Shown here in pieces: positions 24,555-41,615 of a stretch of 64,000 bases of DNA (the first letter of the stretch is position 1; every line of letters starts with the position of its first letter). The stretch is from contig NZ_CP119766.1 of the NCBI RefSeq assembly GCF_030378165.1, forward strand, positions 5,146,001 to 5,210,000, written 5' to 3'. Origin of the DNA: Flavobacterium panacagri (GTDB lineage Bacteria > Bacteroidota > Bacteroidia > Flavobacteriales > Flavobacteriaceae). The notes beneath the pieces are model-generated. The model did not search any database. It was not told the DNA's origin and worked only from the letters and a program-made list of their open reading frames with translations. A program made the translations under genes and the position numbers.

Positions 24555-26024
24555 TTATCTCTCTGTTTTTTGCGGAATTACTTTTGGACGATCTGTCTGA
24601 TTCGATAGAATCCAGCCAGTGCGATACATCCAGTCTGTCATTTTATGCAGTTTGACAAAATCTATATTCTCCGACTCATCCATTGGAGTATGATATTGAC
24701 TGTGCAAAACACTTGTAAAGAAAACTGCTGGAATATTTTTTCTAGCGTAAGGCAGATGGTCTGATCTAAAATAAAAGAACTCAGGATGCTCCGGTCTGTC
24801 CCAAAGTTTATCAAGTTCGAATTTTGGCCCTTCATCATTGGCTTTTTTAGCTACAGCCACAAGATCAGGAGAATTTTGATGCGGGTCGCTGGATCCTAAA
24901 AGTGCTGCTTGATTGATATCATTTCTTCCAATCATATCACCATTTAAAACCGCAATGATATCTTTTTCAGGTACTGTTGGGTGCGATGCATACCAACTAG
25001 AACCTAGTAATCCGCGTTCTTCTGAGCCATGAAACACAAACAAAGCGGATCTTTTTGCGGGCTGTTTCTTGTAGGCTCTCGCAATAGCGAGCATAGCCAC
25101 ACAAGTACTTGCATTATCATCTGCTCCGTTGTAGATAGAATCTTGTCCGTATTTCTGCCTTACGCCATCGTGATCTTGATGGCCGCTGAAAAGAACATAT
25201 TCGTTCTTTAATTTAGCATCTGTTCCTTCAATTTTTCCAACAACGTTTACAGATGGATATTTATAGGTTTCTGAAATTACTTCGGCAGATAAAAGTTCTT
25301 TTGTGTTTTTAAGAAAATCTAATTGATTATTATGAACCCAAAAAGCAGGCATTCTAGGAGGAACAGGCATTTTATCGCGGTAACCTTCAATACCATAAAC
25401 ACCTCGTTTCATTTGAGGTTCTACTTCAGACCAGCTTTTTTCGCCCAATTCATCTGCAACGATAATAAGGGCTGCCGCGCCTTTATAAGCTAAATCTTCG
25501 TAATATTTCTGCTTGACAAAACCAGGATAACGTCTTTCAAAAAGAGAAATATTATCTGCAATTCCCTCTTTAGAAGCCAATATTACAACTGCTTTTCCTT
25601 TTACATCTGCTTTTCTGATTTCTTCAGCAGAAGCGTTAGCTAAAAACAATATTGGAGCTTCCACTTTTTTAGTAGTCGTTTCAGCAACTAGCACTTCACT
25701 CCATAATTTAAATTCTTTTTGACCGATTTTAAATTTGGTGTTGTTGGTAACCTGATGTCGGTATAAATCAAAAAATTGAAAAAAAGTACCATCATCACCA
25801 GCAGGTGACATTCCGGCTTCTTTTGCCTTCTCTGCCAACCACATAGAGACTTTTAATTCGTCCAAAGTACCTGCTTCGCGTCCATTAAAATGGTCGCCAG
25901 CCATTTGGTACATATCTGTTTTAAGATCCTTTAAAGTTATAGCACTAACCAAAGGTTTTTTGACTGTCTGCGAAAAAATCACATTACAGCTTAAGCTGAA
26001 TAATAAAAACAACTTTTTTTTCAT
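24555..26024 (-). CDS. Secreted M28-family zinc aminopeptidase with PA insert
   Basis: A 489-residue exported peptidase (signal peptide MKKKLFLLFSLSCNVIFSQ). The co-catalytic zinc site is visible in order: FSGHQDHDG, NGADDNAST, the general base and ligand in HGSEERGLLG, LNGDMIGRND and, near the C-terminus, HSQYHTPMD. A protease-associated-domain-like insertion lies between about 115 and 250. The family removes N-terminal residues from peptides in the periplasm or outside the cell. It is divergent from the sigma/FecR/SusCD/M16 operon across a 341-bp gap, so a joint role in peptide breakdown is plausible but unproven. Confidence 0.93.
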   Translation of the reverse strand: MKKKLFLLFSLSCNVIFSQTVKKPLVSAITLKDLKTDMYQMAGDHFNGREAGTLDELKVSMWLAEKAKEAGMSPAGDDGTFFQFFDLYRHQVTNNTKFKIGQKEFKLWSEVLVAETTTKKVEAPILFLANASAEEIRKADVKGKAVVILASKEGIADNISLFERRYPGFVKQKYYEDLAYKGAAALIIVADELGEKSWSEVEPQMKRGVYGIEGYRDKMPVPPRMPAFWVHNNQLDFLKNTKELLSAEVISETYKYPSVNVVGKIEGTDAKLKNEYVLFSGHQDHDGVRQKYGQDSIYNGADDNASTCVAMLAIARAYKKQPAKRSALFVFHGSEERGLLGSSWYASHPTVPEKDIIAVLNGDMIGRNDINQAALLGSSDPHQNSPDLVAVAKKANDEGPKFELDKLWDRPEHPEFFYFRSDHLPYARKNIPAVFFTSVLHSQYHTPMDESENIDFVKLHKMTDWMYRTGWILSNQTDRPKVIPQKTER

Positions 26025-26365: not shown

Positions 26366-26953
26366 ATGGCTCAAAATTTCAATATTGACGAAAAAAAACT
26401 TCTTCTTGAATTATCTCAAGGAAGCGAGCTTGCGTTTACAAATGTGTACAATCAATATAAAAATAATGTCTATTCGACTGCTTTACGAATTACGAAATCT
26501 AAAATTCAAGCAGAAGAAGCTGTTCAAGACATCTTTTTGAAGATCTGGCAAAATCGCGAAAACTTGGTTGAAGTAACCCATTTTGAGAATTATCTTTATA
26601 TAATCTCTCGTAATCATTTATTCAATTCAATTAAAAAAATCGCTCGCGAAACAAGTCAAATTTCTCCATTCGATCAAAAAGAAACAGGTATTATTGATAC
26701 TGACAGCAATATTAAAGACGAACAATACAATACAATTTTAAACCAGATTGTAGAGCAGTTACCTCCTCAGCAGCAAAAAGTCTATCAAATGGCAAAAAGG
26801 GATGGCCTTAGTCATCAAAAAATTGGCGAAGATTTAGGCATCTCAACAGAGACGGTAAAAAAACATATGGCTCAGGCTTTAAAATTTATACGTCTTAAAA
26901 TTTCTCCATACATGAATATGTTCATGTCATTACTGCTATTTTTAAAGTTTTAG
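26366..26953 (+). CDS. ECF sigma-70 family RNA polymerase sigma factor
   Basis: A FecI-like sigma factor that starts the M16/SusCD operon. Region 2 contains AEEAVQDIFLKIWQNREN and region 4 the helix-turn-helix HQKIGEDLGISTETVKKHM. The open frame reaches a TTG at 26348, but the ATG at 26366 (MAQNFNIDEKK) gives the usual 195-residue form and is preferred. The C-terminus ends with the hydrophobic MNMFMSLLLFLKF. A FecR gene follows after 220 bp, then SusC and SusD. It should drive the receptor genes when the SusC STN domain signals through FecR. Confidence 0.94.
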   Translation: MAQNFNIDEKKLLLELSQGSELAFTNVYNQYKNNVYSTALRITKSKIQAEEAVQDIFLKIWQNRENLVEVTHFENYLYIISRNHLFNSIKKIARETSQISPFDQKETGIIDTDSNIKDEQYNTILNQIVEQLPPQQQKVYQMAKRDGLSHQKIGEDLGISTETVKKHMAQALKFIRLKISPYMNMFMSLLLFLKF

Positions 26954-26990
26954 CCTAAAGGTTTTTCTTTCAAAAAGATTCAAAACTACA

Positions 26991-27125
26991 TTTTTTTACA
27001 TTTTTTTTACATTTTTTTCACTTTCGACTACTCCCTCCCCTTTTTTTAATGGTCTTTATATAAAAAGGGACATTTTTAAACGTGTCCTATCCCTAAAATT
27101 AGAAGGGCTGAAAAAAAAAAAAAAA
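26991..27125. repeat. Homopolymer and short-tract region upstream of fecR
   Basis: Three stretches of ACA followed by seven or eight T lie at about 26988-27018, and an uninterrupted run of 15 A lies at 27111-27125, 48 bp before the fecR start. Such long runs are prone to slippage. A GGACA/TGTCC inverted repeat lies between them at about 27068-27087. Confidence 0.6.
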
Positions 27126-27173
27126 CTCCAAACTATCATTTACAAACAAGTACTAATTTAATTAACGAGACAA

Positions 27174-28223
27174 ATGCAGCAAAAAAAGTTCGAAGAGTTA
27201 TTTGAAGGCTATCTGCAAAATAATCTATCTGATGCAGAACAGCAGCAAATGATGAAGATAATGCAGCAGGGCGTGCATGATGATTTTCTGAAGGAAAAAA
27301 TTCATGAGATGCTGAAAAGTGATTATGTTACAGATGTGATGGATAAAAAACAGAGTGATGATATTCTGAAGTACATTTTATCTAAACCACAGAATGAACC
27401 TAAGGTAGTGGATTTAAATCCGAAGAGAAAAACAAGAGTGGTTTTACAATCGCTTTTCGCAGCGGCAAGTATCGCTTTATTAATTGTTTTGGGAAATTCG
27501 TTGTTCTTTAAACAAAAAACGACAATTCCAACTATTATACCTGAAGCACCTGCTGTTGTAGCCCAAAATACTTTAATTGACTTTAGCGGGAAACAATTGG
27601 TACACCTTCCAGATGGTAGTACAGTTCTTTTAAATGATAACAGTACACTGAAATACGATAAAGATTCTTTTGATTCTAAAACTCGTGAAGTTACATTGAC
27701 TGGAGAAGCTTTTTTTGATATTAAACACAATACAGAAAAACCTTTTATTGTACATACTGGTAAAATTCAGACTAAAGTATTAGGAACTGCTTTTAATATT
27801 AATGCTCAAAATTCTTCAGAAAATATAGAGGTTACAGTTGCACGCGGTAAAGTTCAAGTTGGCGATGTAGAAAAAGTATATGGTGTAATTACTCCAAATC
27901 AACAGATTAAAGTAAATAAAAGCACTTTAAACTTCGAACAAAACAATATCAGTTCGGCTATTGTAACTGAATGGAAAAGCAATTATCTGATTCTTGATGA
28001 TCTTAATATGTCCGAAGCTGTTTCTCTAATAGCTCAAAAATATAAAGTACAGATTTTTATCTCGAACGAAAAAATTAAGAATTGCAGAATAACAGCGAGT
28101 TTCTTAAACGAAGAAGATTTAGATCATGTACTAAAAGTAATTAGCAGTGTTATCGAAACCGAATATCGTTACAATAAAGCCGGTAACGTTATTTTAGACG
28201 GAAAAGGCTGTGAGAAAGAATAA
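27174..28223 (+). CDS. FecR family anti-sigma factor
   Basis: A 349-residue inner-membrane regulator paired with the sigma factor just upstream. The cytosolic part (about 1-90) starts QQKKFEELFEGYLQNNL. The membrane helix is at about 96-112. The periplasmic FecR domain carries IDFSGKQLVHLPDGSTVLLN, EAFFDIKHNTEKPFIVHT and TKVLGTAFNI. A C-terminal DUF4974 domain (about 265-345) is expected to contact the STN domain of the SusC receptor. The stop codon lies in the first unit of an AAAGAAT heptamer array, so the protein ends Lys-Glu. The ATG at 27174 follows an A-rich leader. Confidence 0.94.
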   Translation: MQQKKFEELFEGYLQNNLSDAEQQQMMKIMQQGVHDDFLKEKIHEMLKSDYVTDVMDKKQSDDILKYILSKPQNEPKVVDLNPKRKTRVVLQSLFAAASIALLIVLGNSLFFKQKTTIPTIIPEAPAVVAQNTLIDFSGKQLVHLPDGSTVLLNDNSTLKYDKDSFDSKTREVTLTGEAFFDIKHNTEKPFIVHTGKIQTKVLGTAFNINAQNSSENIEVTVARGKVQVGDVEKVYGVITPNQQIKVNKSTLNFEQNNISSAIVTEWKSNYLILDDLNMSEAVSLIAQKYKVQIFISNEKIKNCRITASFLNEEDLDHVLKVISSVIETEYRYNKAGNVILDGKGCEKE

Positions 28224-28263
28224 AGAATAAAGAGTAAAGAATAAAGAATAAAGAGTAAAGAAG
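28215..28263. repeat. Heptamer tandem array at the fecR stop codon
   Basis: Seven 7-bp units run AAAGAAT, AAAGAAT, AAAGAGT, then the same three again, then AAAGAAG. The fecR stop TAA is formed at the junction of units 1 and 2. The same heptamer forms a second array at 41681-41750, also overlapping a gene end. Confidence 0.85.
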
Positions 28264-28347
28264 CTGACTAACCTCCTACTTAGAAAGCTTGGAAAATAAA
28301 TATTAACCTTAAAACAAAGACCAATTAACCAAAACTAAATTAAAAAA

Positions 28348-28373
28348 GCCATCCAGCTCCTACACCAGATGGC
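28348..28373 (+). promoter_or_regulatory. Hairpin in the fecR-susC gap (leader or attenuator)
   Basis: Arms GCCATC (28348-28353) and GATGGC (28368-28373) are followed by CGAGATTTTTAAC. It ends 49 nt upstream of the susC ATG. The position and the tail resemble the hairpin at 722-747 upstream of the other susC gene. Confidence 0.4.
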
Positions 28374-28422
28374 CGAGATTTTTAACAATTAATCCAGTAA
28401 CCATTAAAAAACAAGCAAATTT

Positions 28423-31400
28423 ATGAAATTACGCTGTAAAACAACCATGTTTGACAGTGAAAAGAATTCGTCTTTTTTTCACTTGTCAAAAAAAACCATT
28501 ATGATTATGCGAATCAGTTTATTCCACATTTTCTTGCTGACCTGCGGCACTCATATGATCTTCGCAACCGAAATGAGCGGTCAGAATTTAGAGTCTATAT
28601 CTGTTGACATTGAACTGCATAATCAGGATATTAAAACGCTTTTTAAAACGATAGAAAACAGAACGGGATTACTGTTCGCCTATCAGCCACAGATTATTAA
28701 AGATTTTCCAAAAGTGACTACTCAGCGTGGTCGTCGAACTGTTAGTGATATTTTAAACACTGTATTTCAAGGCACAAATTTGGTCTATAAACAAGTGGAC
28801 AAAAATGTTGTAATTTATAAAAAAGAAGTTCCTAAAACAGTTGTATCAAAAACAGAAAATGACAGTGAAGCAAATTATATGCTTAATGGTAAAGTTTTAG
28901 ATGAAAACGGCCAGCCTTTGCCTGGAGTATCTGTTGCTGTTGTTGGCGGTAATAAACAAGGCGTTTCAGACTTTGATGGTCAGTTTTATATTGAATTGCC
29001 GTCTGGAAAACATATCTTAAAAGTATCTTATTTAGGTTATAAATCGCAAGAAATTACAGTCGAAAACCAAACTTCGATTACTATCAAAATGCAGCCCGAT
29101 TTAGCTAAACTGGATGAAGTTGTAATTATTGGATATGGAACAACAACTAAAAGAACTTCAACAGGATCAGTTGTTAAAATTACTTCTGAAGATATTGAAA
29201 AACAACCTATAACCAATATTCTGCAAAGTTTACAAGGAAGAACTCCTGGAGTTTTTGTTACACAGACTTCTGGTTATGCAGGAAGTAATATTAATATTAG
29301 CATTCGTGGTACAAATTCTATAGCAGGAGACAATTTACCTCTTTATGTAATTGATGGGGTTCCTTACATCTCTGATGATATAAAGGAACAAGTTCAATCG
29401 GATCGTGTTATTAGAGGAGCACAAAAAGCCACAAGTCCGCTGAATGTAATCAATCCAAATGATATTCAGAGTATCGAAATCCTTAAAGATGCTGATGCTA
29501 CAGCGATATACGGATCCAGAGGTGCAAACGGAGTTGTACTTATTACAACTAAAAAAGGAGAATCTGGAAAAACTGTATTTACTTTAAATGCAAACTCAGG
29601 AATTTCTGAGGTTGCGCATATGGTAAAAACCTTAGATACGCCTACTTACCTAAATATGCTTCGTACAGCTTTGACCAATGCCAATGCGACCCCAAGTGCC
29701 TTTAGTACCGGAATTGCATTAACAGCTTTTGATCAAAATGCTTATACAAACTGGCAGAAAAAATTAATTGGCGGTTCTGCTAATTTTAATGATTATTCAG
29801 GAAGCTTAAAAGGTGGAAATGAAAACACTAATTTCTTATTAAGCAGTGCTTACCATAAAGAAACAACAGTTTTACCAGGAGATTTTGGATACAATAAATT
29901 CTCTACCAATTTTAATATCAATCATTATACTTTCAACAAAAAACTAAAGATAGGAGCTTCAGTTATTTTTGCTGCAGATAAAAATGTATTGCCTTATTAT
30001 GATATAACGAATTATGCGGTACTTACTGCGCCAAATCATACCATTTACAATGCAGACGGAACTTATTACTGGTCACCGACTTATTTTAGTGATGTAAATC
30101 CGCTTGCTGCTTTAGACCGAAGAGTTGAGGATAAAGGAAACAATTTAATTACGAGTTTCAGTATTCAGTACGAAATTGCTAAAGGATTATCTTTTAAAAC
30201 AGATTTAGGATACGGAAGAGCACAAATGATCTCAAAGCAAATCCTTCCAGCTTCTGGAATGAATAATGTGTATTATACGACAAATAATATTTCACTTAAT
30301 ACTTCAAGATCCTATACCGTTTCGAATAACAATACAAACAATTTTACCATCGATCCTCAATTAAATTACAATACTACGTTGTTTAAAGGAAACTTTACAG
30401 CGCTGGTTGGAGGTTCTTGGCAGAATAGAAAATCAGAAATGCCATCATATGTAAGTACATCTGGCTACAGTTCTGATAATCTTATTGGTATTACTGGTAC
30501 TGCTGCAACTGTTACTTCATACAACGGAACATCTGAATATAAATACGCTTCTATTTTCAGTAGAATTAACTACAATTTCTTAAATAAATATATCCTGAAT
30601 GTCAACTTCAGAAGAGACGGTTCTTCACGTTTTGGAGCAAATAACCGTTATGGAAACTTTGGTTCTGTGGGTGCTGCTTGGGTTTTCACAGAAGAAAAAT
30701 TCTTAAGAGACAAATCATGGCTGAGTTTTGGTAAACTTCGTTCCAGCTATGGTGAAATTGGAAGTGATGCCATTGGAGATTACGGCTATGCAAATACCTA
30801 TTCAACAGGAACATACGGAAATGGAAATGCTGCCATGACAGCAACAAGAATTGCAAATCCAAATTATCAATGGGAAGTAACTAAAAAGTTTGAAGCAGCT
30901 TTAGATTTAGGTTTCCTTGATGATCGAATTTCATTTAGTGCGGCCTTCTACAGAAATCGTTCCGGAAATCAATTAGTAAGTGCAACACTTAGTCCACAAG
31001 CTGGTTTTACAAGTTATCAAGCAAATTTAGCGGCAGAAGTAGAAAATAAAGGAATCGAATTTACTTTAAGTACTACTAACATCCGTAATAAAAACTTAAA
31101 CTGGAGTACTTCGTTTAATATTTCTAAAAACTCTAACAAATTATTATCATTCCCTGGAATAGAAACGTCAAGTTATTACACTACTTATGTAGTTGGAAAT
31201 CCTTTAAGCAGTAGATATTTATACAATTTTACAGGTGTAAATGCAAACGGAATTGCACAATTTGAAGATGCTAACGGAGACGGAAAAATCTCTTCAGGAT
31301 TTGCTCAGACAGGAACTGGAGATAGAAAATACTATGGACCGTCTTATCCTAAATATTATGGTGGTATTTCAAACTCTATCAGTTATAAAAAATTCTCACT

Positions 31401-31809
31401 TGATTTCTTGTTCCAATTTGTAAAACAAGAAGGAAGAAGCCTCTTATCGTCTATCGCAGTACAGCCAGGATATCCTTACGGACTTGCTAATTATCAAGTT
31501 GATGAATACAATGATTACTTAGCGCAAGGCAATGTTTTAAGCTCTAATTACCAGGCTAGTTTCTTTAACTATGCAGGATCTACAGCTACAATTGTTGATG
31601 CTTCGTACATCAAACTTAAAAATGTAAGCGCATCTTATAACATTCCATTAGATCAAAACACGCAAAAATTCATCCAAAATATTCGTGTTTCATTACAAGG
31701 GCAAAACCTTGTAACCTTCACAAAATATAAAGGGTTTGATCCGGAAACTCAAGGTTTAAATTTACCTCCGTTACGTACCATTACTTTAGGAACACAGTTT
31801 ACATTTTAA
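28423..31809 (+). CDS. SusC/RagA-type TonB-dependent receptor with STN domain
   Basis: An 1128-residue outer-membrane transporter. The order is signal segment (about 28-48), STN signalling domain (about 56-133, VDIELHNQDIKTLFKTIENR), carboxypeptidase-regulatory-like domain (about 153-223, GKVLDENGQPLPGVSVAV), TonB-box-like DEVVIIGYGT (231-240), plug (about 245-370; SIRGTNSIAG and PLYVIDGVPY) and a 22-strand barrel ending TLGTQFTF. It forms a transporter with the SusD lipoprotein encoded 11 bp downstream, whose lid closes over the barrel. The STN domain plus the adjacent sigma/FecR pair show cargo-induced control. The downstream protease genes suggest a peptide or protein cargo rather than a glycan. 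Confidence 0.95.
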   Translation: MKLRCKTTMFDSEKNSSFFHLSKKTIMIMRISLFHIFLLTCGTHMIFATEMSGQNLESISVDIELHNQDIKTLFKTIENRTGLLFAYQPQIIKDFPKVTTQRGRRTVSDILNTVFQGTNLVYKQVDKNVVIYKKEVPKTVVSKTENDSEANYMLNGKVLDENGQPLPGVSVAVVGGNKQGVSDFDGQFYIELPSGKHILKVSYLGYKSQEITVENQTSITIKMQPDLAKLDEVVIIGYGTTTKRTSTGSVVKITSEDIEKQPITNILQSLQGRTPGVFVTQTSGYAGSNINISIRGTNSIAGDNLPLYVIDGVPYISDDIKEQVQSDRVIRGAQKATSPLNVINPNDIQSIEILKDADATAIYGSRGANGVVLITTKKGESGKTVFTLNANSGISEVAHMVKTLDTPTYLNMLRTALTNANATPSAFSTGIALTAFDQNAYTNWQKKLIGGSANFNDYSGSLKGGNENTNFLLSSAYHKETTVLPGDFGYNKFSTNFNINHYTFNKKLKIGASVIFAADKNVLPYYDITNYAVLTAPNHTIYNADGTYYWSPTYFSDVNPLAALDRRVEDKGNNLITSFSIQYEIAKGLSFKTDLGYGRAQMISKQILPASGMNNVYYTTNNISLNTSRSYTVSNNNTNNFTIDPQLNYNTTLFKGNFTALVGGSWQNRKSEMPSYVSTSGYSSDNLIGITGTAATVTSYNGTSEYKYASIFSRINYNFLNKYILNVNFRRDGSSRFGANNRYGNFGSVGAAWVFTEEKFLRDKSWLSFGKLRSSYGEIGSDAIGDYGYANTYSTGTYGNGNAAMTATRIANPNYQWEVTKKFEAALDLGFLDDRISFSAAFYRNRSGNQLVSATLSPQAGFTSYQANLAAEVENKGIEFTLSTTNIRNKNLNWSTSFNISKNSNKLLSFPGIETSSYYTTYVVGNPLSSRYLYNFTGVNANGIAQFEDANGDGKISSGFAQTGTGDRKYYGPSYPKYYGGISNSISYKKFSLDFLFQFVKQEGRSLLSSIAVQPGYPYGLANYQVDEYNDYLAQGNVLSSNYQASFFNYAGSTATIVDASYIKLKNVSASYNIPLDQNTQKFIQNIRVSLQGQNLVTFTKYKGFDPETQGLNLPPLRTITLGTQFTF

Positions 31810-31820
31810 ATCTAAAAGAC

Positions 31821-33188
31821 ATGAAAAATAATTCTATAAAATACTCTTATATATTTTCGTTTTTTCTTTTAATGGGATTAACGAGTTGCGATGAAATGCT
31901 TGACGTTGATCTGCCAAGCAATGAATTGTCTTCGGCTACAATATACGCTTCTGATCCTACTGCAGAAGCTGCTGTAAATGGAATTTACAATAGTATTAAT
32001 GTTAGTACCTATTATAGTTCACTGCATTATGTTTTGGGACAAACTTCTGATGAGCTTATACCAAAAACGCAGCTGGTAAATGTTTATACTTCTAATGAAA
32101 TGATTGACACTGATGGAACGACAAGCTCTATGTGGACTGAATTCTACAAAACGGTTTATAATGCCAACAATGTTATTGAAGGGATATCAGCAAGTAAAAC
32201 ATTAAGTGCTGCAAAAAGTAAAAACTGGATTGGCGAAGCTAAATTTTTAAGAGCTTACTGCTATTTTTACATGACCAATATTTGGGGTGAAGTCCCTTTG
32301 GTTTTAACCACAAATGTTGATAAATCCGCTTTGGCTCCAAAAAACACCCAAGCAGAAATTTACAATCAGATTGTTTTGGATTTGACAGATGCTGTGGCTG
32401 ATCTTCCTGTAAATTATACATCTTATAATTCATTGCGAATTAGAGCTACAAAATGGGCCGCTGAAGCTTTATTGGCCAGAGTAAACCTTTACTTAGGAAA
32501 ATGGTCTGAAGCCTCAACTTATGCAAGTGATGTAATCAGCCAAACGGGAACCTATAAAATGGTAACGGGGTTAACTGCAACAAATAGTCCTTTTATTGCT
32601 GACAATACCGAAGCAATATGGCAGATTCCTTATTTTAATACTACTTATACCTATGAAGGTGCTGCTTTGTTCTCTACAGCAGGAACTTATATGCTTAGAA
32701 AAGGAAACACAATGTTTGAAACTGATGACGCCAGAAAAACTAACTGGACAATTAGCGTAATAGCAAGTGACGGAACAACATTTTTAGCGCCTAGAAAATA
32801 TAAAAATGCTTATGTTGCTTCTCCAGTAGAACGTTCAACGGCACTTCGTTTAGCTGAACTTTATTTAATTAGAGCCGAAGCTAGAGTAAAACTAAACCAA
32901 ATTACTGGCGCTCAGGAAGACATTAATGTAATCCGTAACAGAGCTTTATTACCTTCTACTACATTAACAGATCCTACTCAATTGTCAGCCTTAATTGCTG
33001 CAGAAAGAGAACGCGAACTGTTTGCAGAATTTGGCCACAGATGGTTTGATCTTAAAAGAACTGGAACTATAGATCAAGTTCTTGGAGCAACTGCTGGAAA
33101 AATCTGGTCTTCTACAGACAGTCTTTTCCCAATACCAGAATCTGCAATTCGCTCAAATCCCTTTTTAACCCAAAATTCAGGATACTAA
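31821..33188 (+). CDS. SusD/RagB-type surface lipoprotein
   Basis: A 455-residue lipoprotein with lipobox MGLTSCDEM (acyl Cys23). It has the alpha-helical SusD/RagB fold: the N-terminal DEMLDVDLPSNELS, tetratricopeptide-like helices such as WIGEAKFLRAYCYFYMTNIW, and the C-terminal signature AAERERELFAEFGHRWFDLKR. It caps the SusC barrel and captures cargo at the cell surface. At 455 residues it is shorter than many glycan-type SusD proteins (about 500-600). A strong hairpin follows the stop before the ABC transporter gene. Confidence 0.94.
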   Translation: MKNNSIKYSYIFSFFLLMGLTSCDEMLDVDLPSNELSSATIYASDPTAEAAVNGIYNSINVSTYYSSLHYVLGQTSDELIPKTQLVNVYTSNEMIDTDGTTSSMWTEFYKTVYNANNVIEGISASKTLSAAKSKNWIGEAKFLRAYCYFYMTNIWGEVPLVLTTNVDKSALAPKNTQAEIYNQIVLDLTDAVADLPVNYTSYNSLRIRATKWAAEALLARVNLYLGKWSEASTYASDVISQTGTYKMVTGLTATNSPFIADNTEAIWQIPYFNTTYTYEGAALFSTAGTYMLRKGNTMFETDDARKTNWTISVIASDGTTFLAPRKYKNAYVASPVERSTALRLAELYLIRAEARVKLNQITGAQEDINVIRNRALLPSTTLTDPTQLSALIAAERERELFAEFGHRWFDLKRTGTIDQVLGATAGKIWSSTDSLFPIPESAIRSNPFLTQNSGY

Positions 33189-33201
33189 ACATTAAAAGTA
33201 A

Positions 33202-33235
33202 CGCAGGAATGAAATTGTAAAAACTCATTCCTGCG
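33202..33235 (+). terminator. Intercistronic hairpin between susD and the ABC ATPase
   Basis: Perfect 11-bp arms CGCAGGAATGA (33202-33212) and TCATTCCTGCG (33225-33235) are followed by ATTTTAAAAAT. Only 15 nt separate it from the ATG at 33251, leaving no room for a new promoter. It should act as a partial terminator or an mRNA-stabilising structure that lowers expression of the downstream genes relative to susCD. Confidence 0.6.
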
Positions 33236-33250
33236 ATTTTAAAAATCACT

Positions 33251-34201
33251 ATGGAAACAACAACAATTGTAAGAGTTGAGGACTTGTCGCATCAATATAG
33301 TAAGGATTGGGCAATACAAAATATAAATTTCGAGATTAAAACAAACAGAATTTTAGGCCTTTTAGGATCGAACGGTGCCGGAAAATCTACTACAATGAAT
33401 ATTCTTTGCGGTGTTCTAAACCAAACCAGCGGTAATATTTTTATTGATGGAATTAACCTGAAAGAAAATCCTGTTGAAGCTAAAAAATTAATTGGTTTTT
33501 TACCGCAGACACCGCCTTTACATTTAGATTTAACAGTAGATGAATATTTGATTCATTGTGCAGAGCTGCGTCATGTAAAAAAAGAAGATTTAAAAAGTGC
33601 TTTAGAAAAAGCCAAAGAACAATGCGGTATTTCACATTTCAGCAATCGCTTAATCCGAAATCTATCTGGAGGATACCGTCAGCGAGTGGGTATTGCACAG
33701 GCTATTATTCATGAACCTAAATTAGTCGTTTTAGATGAACCAACAAACGGACTTGATCCTAACCAGATTTTAGAAGTTAGAAAATTAATTAAAAAAATCT
33801 CCAAAGACAAAGCCGTAATATTCTCTTCGCATATTCTATCTGAAGTTCAGGCAACCTGCCAGGATATCAGAATGATCGAGAACGGACACATGGTGTTTTC
33901 AGATACTTTGGATGCTTTTAATAATTATATCGAAGCAGATAAATTAACGGCTAGTTTTGAAAATCCGCCAAAAATTGAATCTTTAACAGCGATTTCAGAA
34001 GTTACTAATGCTGTATATCTTACTCCAAAAAAAGTACAAATTACTTTCGAAGGCACGCAGGAAGTTGCTGAAAAAATCGTTTCCCTAAGCGTTCATAACG
34101 ATTGGAAATTACGTGAAATTCAATTCGAAAAAGTCTCTTTAGATGAGATTTTTGCACAATTATCTAAAAAAGCCCCTTCTAAAAACGCTACACTTTCTTA
34201 A
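33251..34201 (+). CDS. ABC transporter ATP-binding protein (GldA/CcmA-like)
   Basis: A 316-residue ATPase. Walker A is GSNGAGKST (39-47), the signature motif is NLSGGYRQRVGIAQA, Walker B is LVVLDEPTNGLD and the H-loop is FSSHILSE. A C-terminal extension of about 90 residues is typical of GldA-type drug- or export-like ATPases. It is coupled to the permease gene 11 bp downstream, so the two form the transporter. The susCD genes lie upstream and an M16 protease downstream in the same operon. Direction of transport cannot be read from sequence; the family mostly exports. Confidence 0.93.
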   Translation: METTTIVRVEDLSHQYSKDWAIQNINFEIKTNRILGLLGSNGAGKSTTMNILCGVLNQTSGNIFIDGINLKENPVEAKKLIGFLPQTPPLHLDLTVDEYLIHCAELRHVKKEDLKSALEKAKEQCGISHFSNRLIRNLSGGYRQRVGIAQAIIHEPKLVVLDEPTNGLDPNQILEVRKLIKKISKDKAVIFSSHILSEVQATCQDIRMIENGHMVFSDTLDAFNNYIEADKLTASFENPPKIESLTAISEVTNAVYLTPKKVQITFEGTQEVAEKIVSLSVHNDWKLREIQFEKVSLDEIFAQLSKKAPSKNATLS

Positions 34202-34212
34202 AAACAAAACAA

Positions 34213-36474
34213 ATGAAAACAATATATAGAATTGCTAAAACAGAGCTCAACACTATGTTTTACTCACCTGTTGCGTGGGTTGTTTTAGTGATATTTTCAA
34301 TCCAGTCAAGCTGGAAATTTTTCAATACTATCGAACGTTTTGAAAAAGCACAAAAAATCGGTCAGAGCATGGACAATTTATCACAGATTGTTTTTTCAGG
34401 CTTTAGCGGGTTATATACCGAAATGCAGAATTACCTATACCTGTATGTTCCTCTTTTGACCATGGGATTGGTAAGCCGTGAAATCAACAGCGGTTCTATA
34501 AAGCTTTTGCTTTCTTCTCCCATTAAAATTAAAGAAATTGTATTAGGAAAATATTTAGCTATTGCTGCTTACTGTCTTTTATTCATTGCGATTTTGGGAC
34601 TACAGGTTGCAATTGCTTATTTTTCTATTGAGAATCTCGACCTTAAATTTGCCATTTCTGGTTTAATTGGTTTGTACCTGTTGGTTTGCACTTATGCGGC
34701 AATAGGACTTTTTATGTCTTGCCTGACTTCTTATCAAGTTGTGGCTGCTATAAGTACACTTGTCGTTTTAGCAGGTTTAAATTTTATTGGAAAACTTTGG
34801 CAGGATGTCGAAATCGTAAAAGACATTACCTATTTCCTTTCAATCGCCGGGCGTGCCAATGAAATGCTGGAAGGATTGATTATCAGTAAAGATGTATTTT
34901 ATTTTGTTTTAGTAAGCAGTCTTTTTATTGTATTAAGTATTTACAAATTACAAACAGGAAGAGATGCGCAGACCATTTCAAAAAGACTTTTAAAATATAC
35001 TCTTTTAATCACTATTGTTTTATCGCTTGGCTATATCACATCAAGAGCACCTCTTACGCTTTATACAGATATGACAAGAAATAAAGACAATACACTAACA
35101 AAGAGCAGTTTAGATGTTATTGATAAGATAGAAGGACCTGTTAAGATAACGACCTATGTTAACTTGCTAGATATTAATTATTACATGGCAATGCCATACT
35201 CTCAAAATTCTGATATTGCGAGTTTTGCAAAATATACCCGTTTTTTGCCCCAAATAGAAATGGAATATGTTTATTATTACGACACTTCAACAAATGAAGC
35301 TTTGTATGCTCAAAATCCAGGATTAAACGACAAACAGCTTGCCGAAAAAATGGTCGAGTCGCAGAGTATGAAACTTAAAAAATTATATTCTCCAACAGAA
35401 ATCAAAAAAATTATCGATTTAGGACCTGAACAAAATAGAGTGGTCAGAACAGTAGAATATAACGGAAAAAAGACCTTCCTAAGAATGTTTGATGACTTAT
35501 TTAAAGTACCATTTGAAAAAGAAATATCCGCTTCATTAAAGCGTTTAGTTTCTAATCCTGTAAAAATTGTATTTGCAACTGGAAATATGGAACGCAGTAT
35601 TGAAAAAAATGGAGATAAAAATTATAAAACTGGATTTAACGAAATAACATTTAGAAACTCGTTAATCAATCAAGGATTTGACGTTGTTTCTGTTGATATT
35701 AATGCGCAGAATATTCCTTCTGAAACTACTATTTTAATCATTGCGGATCCTAAAACACAATTAAGTCAAGGTGCTGTCGACCGTATTACTAAATATATTG
35801 ATGAAGGCAAAAACTTAATGCTTTTGGCAGAACCTGAGACCAACTCAGCTTTAGCAGCGATTACAGATAAACTAGGAATCGCATTTACAAAAAAGACTTT
35901 AGTACAGGAAAGTGAAACAAATTCGCCTGATTTCTTAGTAACCGAGCTTCAAAAAAATGTTGATTCTACTGTAATCAAATTAAGTAAAATCAATAATCCA
36001 ATTCCGTTTTTAGGGAGCAGTGGTATTACAACTACAAAAGATGCCGGATTTAAAGTTACGCCACTTTTAAAAACCAATAAGCAGCCAGCATGGGAATCTC
36101 AGGCAGGAATTACTTCAATTTCAGAAGATTTAAAGAAACAGCCTTCTTCAAAAGAAATTCCTCTTGTAACTGCTTTAACGAGAAACATCAATGGTAAAAC
36201 ACAAAAAATAATTGTTGCTGGAGATGCCGATTTTATGGGCAATGCCGAATTAAGCCGTGGTGGATCTGGAACTTTTCAATTTGTAACCGATATTTTCAGC
36301 TGGTTTAGTAATTATCAATTCCCAATTGATACTACTCGTCCTCAAAAAACCGACAAAAAAATCACGATTACTTCAAATCAAGTTTTCATTGACAAAATTT
36401 TGTTTATCGGAATCTTTCCATTATTGATCATATTAGGCGGTGCTTTTATACTTATAAGAAGAAATAGAAGATAA
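34213..36474 (+). CDS. ABC permease fused to a GldG-like auxiliary domain
   Basis: The 753 residues join two parts. The first (about 1-250) is an ABC-2-type membrane domain with six helices like GldF (start MKTIYRIAKTELNTMFYSPV). The second (about 270-720) is a periplasmic GldG/ABC-transporter-auxiliary domain (ITSRAPLTLYTDMTRNKDNTL, later VIVAGDADFMGN-like IIVAGDADFMGNAEL), closed by a C-terminal helix (about 727-747). In F. johnsoniae GldF and GldG are separate gliding proteins; here they are one polypeptide within a receptor/protease operon, so this is a paralogue with another job. It partners the ATPase 11 bp upstream. Confidence 0.87.
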   Translation: MKTIYRIAKTELNTMFYSPVAWVVLVIFSIQSSWKFFNTIERFEKAQKIGQSMDNLSQIVFSGFSGLYTEMQNYLYLYVPLLTMGLVSREINSGSIKLLLSSPIKIKEIVLGKYLAIAAYCLLFIAILGLQVAIAYFSIENLDLKFAISGLIGLYLLVCTYAAIGLFMSCLTSYQVVAAISTLVVLAGLNFIGKLWQDVEIVKDITYFLSIAGRANEMLEGLIISKDVFYFVLVSSLFIVLSIYKLQTGRDAQTISKRLLKYTLLITIVLSLGYITSRAPLTLYTDMTRNKDNTLTKSSLDVIDKIEGPVKITTYVNLLDINYYMAMPYSQNSDIASFAKYTRFLPQIEMEYVYYYDTSTNEALYAQNPGLNDKQLAEKMVESQSMKLKKLYSPTEIKKIIDLGPEQNRVVRTVEYNGKKTFLRMFDDLFKVPFEKEISASLKRLVSNPVKIVFATGNMERSIEKNGDKNYKTGFNEITFRNSLINQGFDVVSVDINAQNIPSETTILIIADPKTQLSQGAVDRITKYIDEGKNLMLLAEPETNSALAAITDKLGIAFTKKTLVQESETNSPDFLVTELQKNVDSTVIKLSKINNPIPFLGSSGITTTKDAGFKVTPLLKTNKQPAWESQAGITSISEDLKKQPSSKEIPLVTALTRNINGKTQKIIVAGDADFMGNAELSRGGSGTFQFVTDIFSWFSNYQFPIDTTRPQKTDKKITITSNQVFIDKILFIGIFPLLIILGGAFILIRRNRR

Positions 36475-36485
36475 AATTCAAAAAA

Positions 36486-39299
36486 ATGAATACTAAAAAA
36501 AATATCATCATTGCGATTATCGCCTTGTCTTTTCAAGGCGCATTTTCGCAGTTTAAAACCACGATTCCGCTGGACAAAAACGTTACGACTGGAAAATTAA
36601 AAAACGGTCTAACCTATTATATCCTGCATAACGAAGAACCAAAAGACAGAGCGAGTTTTTATTTTGTCCAAAATGTTGGTGCCATTTTAGAAGATGACAA
36701 TCAAAACGGATTGGCGCATTTTCTAGAGCACATGGCGTTTAACGGAACGGAACATTTTAAAGGAAAAGGCATTATTAAAATGCTGGAAAAAAATGGTGTA
36801 AGTTTTGGTAAAGACATCAACGCGTATACCGCTCAGGACGAAACGGTTTACAACATCAGTACGGTTCCTGTTTCCAATGAAAAACTAATTGATTCTACTC
36901 TTTGGGTCTTACACGACTGGTCAGGTTCTCTTTCATTAACCAATGAAGAAATTGATGCTGAAAGAGGTGTCATCAGAGAAGAATGGAGAACTCGCCGTAC
37001 AAGCGGTTTCCGTTTAAAAATGCAGACGGACCAGGTTTTGTACAAAGGTTCAAAATACAGTAAAAGAGATGTTATTGGTGATTTAAATATCATTAATAAC
37101 TTCAAATATCCTGAATTGAGAAACTATTATAAAAAATGGTACAGACCCGATTTACAAGCTGTAATTATTGTGGGAGACATTGATGTAAAAGCAATGGAAC
37201 AAAAGGTAAAAACTATTTTTTCTGGAATTCCTTTAGCTAAAAAAGCCACCGCAAGAACCTATACAGAAATTCCAAAACATGACGAATTGTACTTTGGAAC
37301 AGCATCTGATAAAGAAGCTTCTTCAACTGCGATTACGTTACAATATGTTTTGGATGAACCTTTGGTAAAAGATAGTATTTTGAGCCGTAAAAACGTGATG
37401 AATTCTTTTTACACCAGTATTCTAAACAACCGTTTTAAAGAATTAATCTTAAAAAACCAAAGTGCCGCTTTAGGTTTAAAAACATATTTTGAACCTATTT
37501 CAAGATTAAATACATCTTTTAATATTTCGGCTTCGGCCAAAAAAGGAAAAACATTAGAAGCTTTTGAAGATGCATACACAGAAGCTGAGCGTTTAAAACG
37601 TTTCGGAATTGCACAGGCGGAACTGGATAGAACTAAAAAACTTTTCATAAGTTCTTATGATGATTTTATCAGTAATAAAGACAAAGTGGACAATGACAGC
37701 TGGGCTGATAAACTGACTAATTATTTCCTCAAAGCAAAACCATTCCTTTCTGCTGAAGATGATTATAAATTAATTGTTGGTATTATTAAAAGTCTTTCTT
37801 TAGAAGAAATAAATACTTACATCAAAACCATTCAGAAACCAACTAATCAAGTCATTTTAGTAACTGGTTCTGATGAGGATAAAGTAAATTTTCCAACGAA
37901 AGAAGCTGTGGTTCAAGTAATGAAAAAAGTCGAAAACAAGACTTTAGAACCTTACACGAAAAAAGAGAATAACGAACCTTTAATTGCAAAAGAATTAAAA
38001 CCAGCCTCAATTAAAAAAACATTTGAAGTGCCGGGAATTACAGCGGCAAAAGGGTACACTTTAGAAAATGGCGCTAACGTAATTGTGCTTCCAACAACTT
38101 ATTCACAAGATCAAGTGGTGCTTACAGCATTTTCTAAAGGCGGTAAATCTTTAATTAAAACAGAAGATTTAGCTTCTGCCGAGATCGCCACAACGATCGC
38201 AAGATCATCTGGTTTAGGCAATTTTGATAATATTGCTTTAAAAGAAAAATTGACGGGTAAAGTTGCACAGTCTGCTCCTTTTATTGGCGAAAATACGCAG
38301 GGATTTCAAGGAAGTTCCAACAAAGCCGATTTCGAATCGATGCTTCAATTACTGTATCTTTCTTTTGAATCGCCTCGATTTGATTCGAATATTTTCAATA
38401 TTTTAAAAGAACAGTATAAAAACCGTTTAGAAAATATCAAAAAAGATAACGGAAATACATTTAAAGATTCTGTTGCCTTAGCAAACTCCAATCATAATCC
38501 AAGGACTTTTATTTTTGATGAAAAGTTTTTGCAAAATATTGATTTGAAGAAAGCGGAAAGTATTTACAGAGACAGAATTAAAAATGCTTCAGATTTCACT
38601 TTTGTTTTTGTAGGGAATATTCCAGATGGCGCTTTAGAAATGATCCAAAAATATATTGGAAATTTAAAATCAAATCCTGCCGTAAAAGAAACTTTCGCAG
38701 ATCATAATATTGGTCCTAAAAAAGGAAAAACAGTAGTGCATTTCAAGCGTCCTATGGAAGTAGCTAAAAGTACTGTTTACTTGAATTTGACTGGAAAAAC
38801 AGAATATACAAAAGAAAATGCCATGACGATGTATATCATTGGAGAGCTCCTTTCAAAACGTTTCTTGCAGACTATTAGAGAAGAAGAAGGCGGAAGCTAC
38901 GGCGTAAACGTTGGAGGCAATCTGGAATTGATTCCAAAACCATCCTTTAGCCTTGCTTTGACTTTTGACTGTAATCCCGATAAGCAAGAAAAATTAATGC
39001 AGATTGTCTGGAAAGAAATCAATGATTTAAAATCGAATCCAGTTAATGCAAATGATTTGGAAGATATTAAAAAAGCTTTATTGAAAAACAGAGAAGAATC
39101 GCTTAAAACGAATACTTTCTGGGCAACAACGCTGTACAATTACAGTTTAAATCAGATTCCGTTTTCAACAGATGAAGAATATAAAAATTTAATTTCTAAA
39201 ATTAATCAGAAAACTATTCAGCAGTTTAGTAAGCACGTTTTGGATAGTTCTAGTAGCGTCGAAGTTATTATGAATCCTGAAAGCCAATCAGGAAAATAA
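36486..39299 (+). CDS. Periplasmic M16 zinc metalloprotease (PqqL/FusC-like)
   Basis: A 937-residue two-half M16 protease with a signal peptide (cleavage near residue 21, GAFSQ). The N-terminal half has the inverted zinc motif HFLEH (His78, Glu81, His82) and the distal ligand Glu159 in EEIDAERGVIREEW, 77 residues after His82 as in pitrilysin. The C-terminal half lacks a zinc site but keeps the substrate-contact motif REEEGGSYGVNVGG. Proteases of this architecture form closed clamshell chambers that degrade peptides or small imported proteins. It is the last gene of the operon, 11 bp after the permease. Compare PqqL and FusC, which sit beside TonB receptors. Confidence 0.93.
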   Translation: MNTKKNIIIAIIALSFQGAFSQFKTTIPLDKNVTTGKLKNGLTYYILHNEEPKDRASFYFVQNVGAILEDDNQNGLAHFLEHMAFNGTEHFKGKGIIKMLEKNGVSFGKDINAYTAQDETVYNISTVPVSNEKLIDSTLWVLHDWSGSLSLTNEEIDAERGVIREEWRTRRTSGFRLKMQTDQVLYKGSKYSKRDVIGDLNIINNFKYPELRNYYKKWYRPDLQAVIIVGDIDVKAMEQKVKTIFSGIPLAKKATARTYTEIPKHDELYFGTASDKEASSTAITLQYVLDEPLVKDSILSRKNVMNSFYTSILNNRFKELILKNQSAALGLKTYFEPISRLNTSFNISASAKKGKTLEAFEDAYTEAERLKRFGIAQAELDRTKKLFISSYDDFISNKDKVDNDSWADKLTNYFLKAKPFLSAEDDYKLIVGIIKSLSLEEINTYIKTIQKPTNQVILVTGSDEDKVNFPTKEAVVQVMKKVENKTLEPYTKKENNEPLIAKELKPASIKKTFEVPGITAAKGYTLENGANVIVLPTTYSQDQVVLTAFSKGGKSLIKTEDLASAEIATTIARSSGLGNFDNIALKEKLTGKVAQSAPFIGENTQGFQGSSNKADFESMLQLLYLSFESPRFDSNIFNILKEQYKNRLENIKKDNGNTFKDSVALANSNHNPRTFIFDEKFLQNIDLKKAESIYRDRIKNASDFTFVFVGNIPDGALEMIQKYIGNLKSNPAVKETFADHNIGPKKGKTVVHFKRPMEVAKSTVYLNLTGKTEYTKENAMTMYIIGELLSKRFLQTIREEEGGSYGVNVGGNLELIPKPSFSLALTFDCNPDKQEKLMQIVWKEINDLKSNPVNANDLEDIKKALLKNREESLKTNTFWATTLYNYSLNQIPFSTDEEYKNLISKINQKTIQQFSKHVLDSSSSVEVIMNPESQSGK

Positions 39300-39337
39300 A
39301 AAACTTTAGCATACATTTTTATTTTAATTAGTCATTA

Positions 39338-39366
39338 AAGGTTGTCTTTCCAGACAGCCTTTTTTG
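39338..39366 (+). terminator. Intrinsic terminator of the M16 operon
   Basis: Stem AGGTTGTCT (39339-39347) pairs with AGACAGCCT (39352-39360) with one wobble, followed by TTTTTTG. It lies 39 bp after the M16 stop. Confidence 0.8.
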
Positions 39367-40394: not shown

Positions 40395-41615
40395 ATGAAA
40401 CGTTCCGGAACGGCAGATTTACCTTTACATTACGGCCAAGTCCCGTTGTGGCTTTCTGAGCGAATGGCTAAACTTGGTTTTGCAATTGTCGAAACGATTG
40501 CTTTAGAATTTTCTACTTCAGAGGTAATCAGCAAACTCAGCAATCCTTTTTGGTTTCAAAGTTTTGGCGCCGTAATGGGAATGGATTGGCATTCGTCTGG
40601 AATTACAACTTCTGTACTCGGAGCTTTAAAGAAATCGGTTAATCCGCATTCAAAAGAATTGGGAATTTATATCTGCGGAGGAAAAGGCAAAAATTCACTT
40701 TTGACTCCTCAAGAACTTTTATTTGTGGGAGAAAAAACAGGGCTTGACGGAAATAATCTAGCCAACTGCAGCCGACTAACCGCAAAAGTAGACAATACAG
40801 CCATTCAAGACGGTTTTCAATTGTATCAGCATAATTTTATTGTAGACAACAAAGGACAATGGGCGGTTATACAGCAAGGAATGAATCCGTATTCTAAAAC
40901 TGCCAGAAGATACCATTGGCATTCGCCCGATTTAAAATCTTTTATAAATGAACCTCATACGTTTATTTATGGCGAAAATCAAGGTACAATCCTAAATCTG
41001 ACTGCTCAAGCCGCAGAAAAATCGAGAGAAGGAATTTTAGAACTGGTCAAAGAATCTCCAACTAAAATCATAAAAGAAATGCAGCATCTTACTATGCCTG
41101 ATCATCATGATGTTAGAATGGAAGATGTCAACATGAAAAGGCTCGGCGCAATGCTGTGGACAACTCATGAAAATAAACCAGAAGATTTTGAAGAATTATT
41201 ACTTTTAAAAGGAATGGGGCCAAGAGCTTTGCAGTCTTTAGCATTGGTCAGTGAAATAATTTACGGCACTCCCACCCGATTTGAAGATCCTGCCCGTTTC
41301 TCTTTTGCCCACGGAGGAAAAGACGGACATCCATTTCCTGTACCTGTAAAAATTTACGATGAAACCATTGATACTTTACAACGTGCTATTAACCGCGCCA
41401 AAATAGGCAACAACGATAAAATTGATGCTATTCGAAAATTGTCTGAAATCTCCAGAAAAGCAGAACAAAGTTTTACTCCCAACTCCAATTTTGATGCGCT
41501 AATTCAGAGAGAGCGGGACGAATCTTATAAGTATGGCGGAAAAACTGTTTTTGGAGACGCAAAACCTCCTAAAAAGAAACCTATAAATCCAAACAATCAA
41601 CTGGAGTTATTCTAA
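40395..41615 (+). CDS. DUF763 domain protein
   Basis: A 406-residue protein matching the DUF763 family over most of its length. The opening MKRSGTADLPLHYGQVPLWL and the segments GIYICGGKGKNS, AVIQQGMNPYSKTARRYHWH and AHGGKDGHPFPVPVKIYDET are characteristic. A helix-hairpin-helix-like stretch (LLLKGMGPRALQSLALVSE) hints at nucleic-acid contact. The family occurs in archaea and bacteria and has no proven function. It appears monocistronic. The DNA glycosylase gene about 2 kb away is not evidence of a link. Confidence 0.88.
   Translation: MKRSGTADLPLHYGQVPLWLSERMAKLGFAIVETIALEFSTSEVISKLSNPFWFQSFGAVMGMDWHSSGITTSVLGALKKSVNPHSKELGIYICGGKGKNSLLTPQELLFVGEKTGLDGNNLANCSRLTAKVDNTAIQDGFQLYQHNFIVDNKGQWAVIQQGMNPYSKTARRYHWHSPDLKSFINEPHTFIYGENQGTILNLTAQAAEKSREGILELVKESPTKIIKEMQHLTMPDHHDVRMEDVNMKRLGAMLWTTHENKPEDFEELLLLKGMGPRALQSLALVSEIIYGTPTRFEDPARFSFAHGGKDGHPFPVPVKIYDETIDTLQRAINRAKIGNNDKIDAIRKLSEISRKAEQSFTPNSNFDALIQRERDESYKYGGKTVFGDAKPPKKKPINPNNQLELF

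Follow-up and report, generated by a model that had tools for sequence, protein, structure and literature searches.

Do SusC-SusD pairs, mostly studied as glycan gates, also serve in the uptake of peptides or small proteins destined for digestion? The question is raised by seven genes of Flavobacterium panacagri at positions 26366-39299, on the forward strand, of a 64,000-nucleotide stretch of contig NZ_CP119766.1 (positions 5,146,001 to 5,210,000; the whole stretch is called the window here). They encode an extracytoplasmic function (ECF) sigma factor, a FecR-type anti-sigma factor, SusC, SusD, an ATP-binding cassette (ABC) ATPase, a fused permease and an M16 metalloprotease. The operon is conserved among its relatives and has a mosaic history, in which the receptor block stands apart from the rest. 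On balance, we lean towards an operon that takes up and digests peptides or small proteins under sigma/FecR control, for which we infer the cargo, the directions of transport and the cooperation of the parts. The features of the operon are:

26366..26953, + strand: ECF sigma factor (TIGR02985)
27174..28223, + strand: FecR-type anti-sigma factor (PF04773, PF16344)
28423..31809, + strand: SusC/RagA-family TonB-dependent transporter with N-terminal STN and CarboxypepD_reg-like domains (TIGR04056, 755.4 bits)
28672..28824, + strand: STN domain of SusC, residues 84-134 (PF07660, 30.1 bits, cut-off 28.4), in the part that follows the FecR/ABC/M16 history
29140..33188, + strand: receptor block, apparently exchanged, comprising the SusC plug and barrel (from about residue 240) and SusD; edges approximate, from 60-residue windows
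31821..33188, + strand: SusD lipoprotein lid, SusD/RagB family (lipobox LTSC read by eye)
33251..34201, + strand: ABC ATPase, GldA-like but under the GldA cut-off (family profiles)
34213..36474, + strand: fused GldF-GldG-type permease, in which an ABC-2 membrane part is joined to a GIFT-like domain in the periplasm (profiles and model)
35563..36249, + strand: ABC_transp_aux (GldG/GIFT-like) domain, permease residues 451-679 (profile and structure matches)
36486..39299, + strand: two-lobed M16 metalloprotease, 937 residues, with a signal-peptide-like start (family profiles)
36717..36731, + strand: HFLEH motif of M16, residues 78-82 (sequence)

Family profiles bear out the gene families and the single strand which a preliminary description, made from the sequence alone, had read here, and the 11-bp spacing it gave for three of the four joints after susC is confirmed (11, 62, 11 and 11 bp), as is the STN domain, for which PF07660 scores above its cut-off. 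The adjacency of SusC and SusD family members across an 11-bp gap identifies a SusCD/RagAB pair. The permease comprises ABC2_membrane_2 and ABC_transp_aux (GldG-type) domains, as evident from Pfam profiles. The GldA/GldFG-type transporter proposed earlier stands as regards the GldG-type domain and the fused permease, but the ATPase (285.5 bits against a GldA cut-off of 402.6) and the GldF part of the permease (83.5 bits against 288.5) score under the gliding-family cut-offs and are therefore not filed as gliding proteins; a separate GldF-like match occurs elsewhere in the same genome. This genome, a single contig of 5.98 Mb, holds 53 SusC genes above the cut-off, and simple arithmetic from this density gives a random gene a 3-4% chance of lying within 8 kb downstream of a same-strand SusC; despite this chance level, the SusC-linked arrangement is seen again in dozens of genomes.

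Full-length relatives of the permease were found at 16 places in 15 of 199 sampled genomes of the genus, its own genome counted; elsewhere in the sample, the permease matches listed are weak, and most have the length of GldF. All 15 other places keep the order sigma, FecR, SusC, SusD, ATPase, permease, M16, and the outer genes differ. The seven-gene set (the cassette) is present in 19 of 19 whole-genome loci examined and in all 30 named loci of Flavobacterium and its kin (L124-L153, of which 26 bear the title Flavobacterium, three Flavobacteriaceae and one [Flexibacter]), so that the expected conservation of susCD with the ABC and M16 genes in related genomes is substantiated; nine contigs are common to the two sets, which leaves about 40 distinct loci. 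The ATPase of L061, L139 and L145 was hidden by the overlap filter and recovered from the raw matches, susC of L035 is divided over two open reading frames, and the M16 reading frame of L129 has only 684 residues. The gap between permease and M16 is 2-14 bp in most loci, 93-113 bp in nine of the 49 listed, 44 bp in L145 and 773 bp in L129. Among the matches listed, from which the own record was possibly excluded, the closest named permeases are those of Flavobacterium ginsenosidimutans, F. panacis and F. phragmitis (95-96% identity). A second copy of the cassette in L041 and L063 retains SusC to M16, with a sigma factor and FecR just ∼28-29% like those of the window.

The mosaic history was recognised by comparing gene distances over 17 genomes; G397 was lost, its ATPase falling under the overlap filter, and G112, in which SusC is split, was represented by its longer SusC fragment. 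SusC and SusD give concordant distances (partial r 0.81, conditioned on gyrB), as do ATPase, permease and M16 among themselves (0.63-0.87), and FecR agrees with the permease (0.68) and M16 (0.65). Between SusC or SusD and the ATPase, permease or M16, the values are 0.12-0.25, with a permutation p < 0.05 in four of the six comparisons. Since neither block follows gyrB (r −0.11 to 0.21; mean gyrB distance 0.07), the operon as a whole may also be mobile, or gyrB may be uninformative. G112 was excluded from the tree tests (16 genomes) and from the domain-split comparison. The sigma-FecR tree conflicts with that of ATPase-permease-M16 less than the receptor-block tree does (log-likelihood 140 and 403 lower), and the regulators therefore have partly a history of their own. 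Residues 1-140 of FecR (27174-27593) are the most variable of 15 parts, with a mean distance of 0.87, and covary with sigma (r 0.67).

The break runs through SusC itself. Its STN and CarboxypepD_reg-like parts track FecR_C, ATPase, permease and M16 (r 0.49-0.75), whereas the plug, the barrel and SusD track one another (0.58-0.91). A segment-wise scan of SusC over 28 sets (27 loci and the window; L129, L139 and L145 omitted), in which eight of the 27 loci and the window come from the same contigs or genome as the domain-split set, places the switch of history between about residues 220 and 260; the N-terminus correlates with ATPase-permease-M16 at r 0.82 and the plug-barrel with SusD at 0.90, as against 0.32 between plug-barrel and ATPase-permease-M16. 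The separation is incomplete, as evident from values of 0.30-0.38 between the blocks (permutation p 0.0005 to 0.0035); plug-barrel against FecR gives 0.14 (p 0.049), and the middle segments of the ATPase track neither block. The co-evolution of SusC with M16 looked for after the preliminary description thus fails for the protein as a whole, plug, barrel and SusD being largely separate from M16 (weak at best), and holds for the SusC N-terminus, the plug-barrel tracking SusD instead. Median ratios of nonsynonymous to synonymous change (dN/dS; 13 genomes, pairs with dS 0.05-2, median dS above 1 and so near saturation) are 0.17 for SusD, 0.12 for FecR, 0.10 for SusC, 0.09 for sigma, 0.07 for M16 and for the permease, and 0.05 for the ATPase. 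The receptor block seems to have been swapped between species, presumably by recombination, with most other parts staying.

The M16 protein begins with a signal-peptide-like sequence without a lipobox (read by eye), and H78, E81, H82 and E159 are invariant across 23 aligned sequences, that of the window included. It aligns with PqqL over nearly its entire length (3.4e-86) and with FusC over residues 24-586 (2.8e-47). PqqL likeness as a mark of the operon was considered and rejected, as the sequence of a Flavobacterium M16 without SusCD finds the same set of structures. The M16 model (predicted local distance difference test, pLDDT, 86.9) best matches a zinc protease of Porphyromonas gingivalis, 9ldy, with a template modelling (TM) score of 0.93; against full-length PqqL, the crystal form of which is open, TM is 0.48 and the root-mean-square deviation 35.8, and against the first half of PqqL TM is 0.91-0.92 by target length.

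M16 trees were built from 45 rows, with Flavobacterium cassettes thinned by hand and M16 reading frames of 880 aa or less omitted, and then from 41 rows, three long-branch rows and one duplicate having been dropped. The M16s of Flavobacterium cassettes group with the own-genome paralogues L104 and L105, and those of other cassettes form a second clade near M16s without SusCD. A single clade of all cassette M16s is rejected by the approximately unbiased test (p-AU 1.4e-7; labels from gene context, test picked after the first tree); the M16 place was therefore filled or refilled at least twice. On a quick tree of the permease, M16 must be gained or lost 7 times, and starred branches force at least five of these changes.

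M16 genes outside the cassette were found at 30 places, of which 20 were fetched (L104-L123); SusC or SusD lies upstream on the same strand in eight of these and not in the other 12. The two other M16 genes found in the host genome at E <= 1e-60 each belong to a SusCD operon, alongside thioredoxin-like, S9/S33-type or DsbD genes, and the neighbour families in L104, L105, L108 and L112 are thioredoxin-like, S9/S33-type, DsbD, aspartyl-protease, DUF4843 and PKD_2. The thioredoxin-like and peptidase genes of these paralogous operons suggest a polypeptide cargo, and it is because of them that peptide or protein uptake with proteolysis is preferred for the operon studied. Between the paralogous loci L105 and L107, SusC is 70%, SusD 78% and M16 93% identical, L105/L109 shows the same trend, and in L108/L110 SusD (75%) again falls behind M16 (86%); these gaps suggest that receptor exchange is possibly not unique to the studied operon. 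L107/L109 (88, 89 and 90%) and L104/L106 (97, 93 and 90%) show no such gap.

The permease model (pLDDT 89.0) matches IFT52, chains of the oligosaccharyltransferase complex and chains of NosDFY, with PmtCD and ABCG exporters lower down; all are partial-length matches with TM of 0.2-0.3 by query length, and the matched chains presumably include NosY and OST48. NosDFY-type machines pass force to periplasmic partners, and GIFT domains are possibly sugar-binding. Judged by its fold, the ABC machine looks exporter-type (NosY-like) or force-transmitting. An uptake of products by this transporter, which was at first supposed to handle them, is doubtful because of the exporter-type fold, on partial-length matches.

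The preferred mechanism would run as follows. At the outer membrane, SusC and SusD would bind the cargo and, driven by TonB, move it to the periplasm; its presence would be signalled to FecR and sigma by the STN domain of SusC. The M16 clamshell would cleave the cargo in the periplasm. The ATPase and the fused GldF-GldG permease would form an ABC-2, NosY-like machine in which ATP drives the periplasmic GIFT-like domain, and which most likely clears, hands over or expels cargo or fragments rather than importing them. Recombination would exchange the receptor block and leave the SusC N-terminus associated with the ABC machine and M16; since the receptor is exchanged over a constant processing part, processing would be rather generic and specificity would reside in the receptor.

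Beyond the genus, the breadth of the system was judged from sampled genomes and one scan of named genomes. At 1e-30, the permease alignment found matches in 11 of the 395 genomes in a phylum sample and in six of 395 in an overlapping class-level sample. The scan kept the best 80 of at least 586 confirmed relatives, which are the nearest relatives and no random sample; they include Flavobacterium, Mucilaginibacter, Pedobacter, Sphingobacterium, Chitinophaga, Butyricimonas, Ancylomarina, Gillisia, Salegentibacter and further taxa. SusC is found on the same strand within four genes of the permease in 73 of these 80 loci (of the seven misses, four lie where a contig ends, and in three the distance to SusC is five genes), SusD within four genes in 76, and SusD, ATPase and permease are strictly consecutive in 61. 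An alternative order, sigma-ATPase-permease-FecR-SusC-SusD, occurs in L064, L167 and L182, and in L201 with two ATPase-permease pairs. The SusCD link is strong and not absolute, since L068 and L069, on one contig, have ATPase-permease cores with a sigma factor and no SusCD within the stretch fetched; in L069, a neighbouring protein of 919 aa is an outer-membrane barrel of the OMP_b-brl_3 family, with 914- and 917-aa proteins alongside, and a 910-aa protein of L068 has no Pfam match. M16 follows the permease within three genes in 45 of the 80, that is, in all of L124-L153 and 15 of the 50 others; the co-occurrence of M16, susCD and fused permease foreseen for Bacteroidota thus extends to other families for the SusCD-ABC core, and only in part for M16.

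Elsewhere the proteins tested beside the core include thioredoxin-like, DUF4843 and PKD_2 proteins and MutS-like pairs, with single cases of a histidine kinase (L180), a calcineurin-like phosphoesterase (L178), DUF4397 (L070) and an oxidoreductase (L187); not all of these neighbours need belong to the operon. L155, within an M16-bearing permease clade, lacks M16; there, SusD and ATPase are separated by a met-zincin and a thioredoxin-like gene, and the permease is followed by an amidohydrolase. Against solved structures, DUF4843 proteins gave one weak, chance-like match and PKD_2 proteins none. The MutS-like pairs (MutS_III and MutS_V, ∼440 aa each) follow the permease at L071:312-2992 and L177:12400-15049, as checked with Pfam, and, by length alone, in L173, L174, L179, L184, L185, L187, L195, L197 and L202; many of these loci are from Chitinophagaceae, and the pairs are unexpected next to a transporter. 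Two or more fused GldFG permeases stand beside one ATPase, or in tandem with ATPases, in L066, L068, L169, L186, L194, L200 and L201, and could form heteromeric machines.

Several observations weigh against uptake and digestion as a joint task of these genes. The receptor-block and ATPase-permease-M16 trees reject each other (log-likelihood 1257 and 1531 lower). The SusCD-free Flavobacterium M16, used as a control, also matches PqqL (5.8e-71) and FusC (8.7e-39), and the M16 model fits FusC (TM 0.67-0.70) no better than human insulin-degrading enzyme (0.67-0.74). The best solved relative of SusC is 8aa4, which we take to be a glycan transporter, ahead of RagA. In 35 of the 50 loci outside Flavobacterium, some of which end at a contig edge, no M16 was found behind the core, and the core therefore does not need it; other partners occupy some loci, such as a GH92 glycoside hydrolase after the permease in L170.

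The rival that survives best, albeit an unlikely one, is defence: SusCD would sense or admit hostile peptides or bacteriocin-like proteins, M16 would destroy them and an exporter-type ABC machine expel them, receptor swaps providing escape from phage or toxin. The fold of the ABC machine, the exchanged receptor block with SusD changing fastest (more than twice the median dN/dS of M16) and the patchy spread over 15 of 199 genomes are consistent with it, but median dN/dS lies far below 1 in all seven genes, with dS near saturation, and the paralogous SusCD-M16 operons look nutritional. Somewhat less probable is the import of a glycoconjugate, the sugar of which would be handled by the GIFT-like domain and its peptide trimmed by M16. 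The likeness of that domain to IFT52 and oligosaccharyltransferase-complex folds, the 8aa4 match and the GH92 gene of L170 speak for a glycan; none of the seven genes encodes a carbohydrate-active enzyme, however, and the partners tested elsewhere include many of thioredoxin-like and peptidase families.

Slightly weaker again is a loose neighbourhood, in which a SusCD-ABC core serves its own function and the co-transcription of M16, a periplasmic protease of the generic sort, is fortuitous. The 35 loci without M16 and the conflicting histories of receptor block and M16 suit this account, but the same core is backed by two M16 lineages, the set is retained in every Flavobacterium locus examined, and the permease-M16 gap is mostly 2-14 bp, with the exceptions given above. 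Export with maturation, in which M16 would trim a precursor, the ABC machine secrete the peptide and SusCD retrieve the product, draws on the pairing of M16 proteases with ABC exporters in peptide biosynthesis and is very improbable, the set holding no extra conserved gene in the loci examined, among reading frames of 70 aa or more, and its flanks differing.

More tentatively, Bacteroidota may have a phylum-wide platform of signal input through sigma, FecR and the SusC N-terminus, a GldFG-type ABC machine and an exchangeable processing enzyme, which would receive receptor modules by recombination at the N-terminus/plug border; its ABC machine, no classical importer, would act in the periplasm as a powered device that unfolds imported polypeptides or hands them over. 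A conserved SusCD-ABC-protease operon with more than one M16 lineage would, if true, extend protein piracy from Proteobacteria, as covered in the available part of a survey (PMC6793856), to Bacteroidota. A swapped receptor block over a steadier signalling and processing block is a natural experiment, in which receptors can be compared over like machinery, and in several families the ABC machine accompanies SusCD as a puzzling partner.

Two further features flank the operon:

39337..39362, + strand: terminator-like hairpin, beginning 38 bases past the M16 stop
24555..26024, − strand: divergent M28 aminopeptidase, an optional neighbour (family profile)

The hairpin is weak evidence alone, as the window has 13 terminator-like sites against 8.1 ± 3.8 in shuffles; a promoter scan of the window was uninformative (49 sites against 51.5 expected). 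The M28 gene, suggested earlier for the end of the degradation, is present and divergent as described, but adjoins the operon in only 13 of the 30 named and six of the 19 whole-genome loci. Downstream, a DUF763 protein at 40395-41615 lies outside the conserved set.

Among known systems, gliding GldA-GldF-GldG shares the ATPase, the ABC-2 permease and the GldG-type domain, whereas the GldF and GldG parts are fused here. The membrane part of the permease matches, over partial length, what is presumably the NosY chain of NosDFY; unlike NosDFY, the operon has no NosD, and its GIFT-like periplasmic domain is fused to the permease. Tong in 2024 reportedly described SusCD import of Bacteroides ubiquitin homologues, a small-protein cargo like that proposed here. 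RagAB of Porphyromonas gingivalis is likewise a SusCD-type pair, and the available part of its account implicates it in protein uptake, with four alleles, suspected horizontal transfer and a conserved N-terminal part (PMC11817032); that part mentions no adjacent M16, GldFG-type ABC or break between N-terminus and plug (PMC11817032). A literature search, covering few subscription papers, returned nothing on SusCD together with M16 and a GldFG-type ABC. Fus/PqqL-type systems are placed in Proteobacteria by the part of a 2019 survey available, with SusC just a distant comparison (PMC6793856). The Fus system of Pectobacterium (FusA/FusC) and YddB/PqqL of E. coli likewise set a TonB-dependent transporter beside a periplasmic two-lobed M16; the operon differs in its SusC/RagA receptor with a SusD lid, its ECF sigma/FecR pair and its GldF-GldG-like ABC machine. 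Its receptor falls outside the FusA/YddB cluster by family model rather than by comparison with FusA (TIGR04056, 755.4 bits against a cut-off of 368.25), and because the receptor is of another family, the operon is not filed under the Fus/PqqL systems. The analogy drawn in the preliminary description survives in that an M16 of the PqqL/FusC kind by sequence stands beside the receptor, a likeness that is not special, as the SusCD-free M16 shares it. By analogy, the mode of action may be like that of the Fus and PqqL systems.

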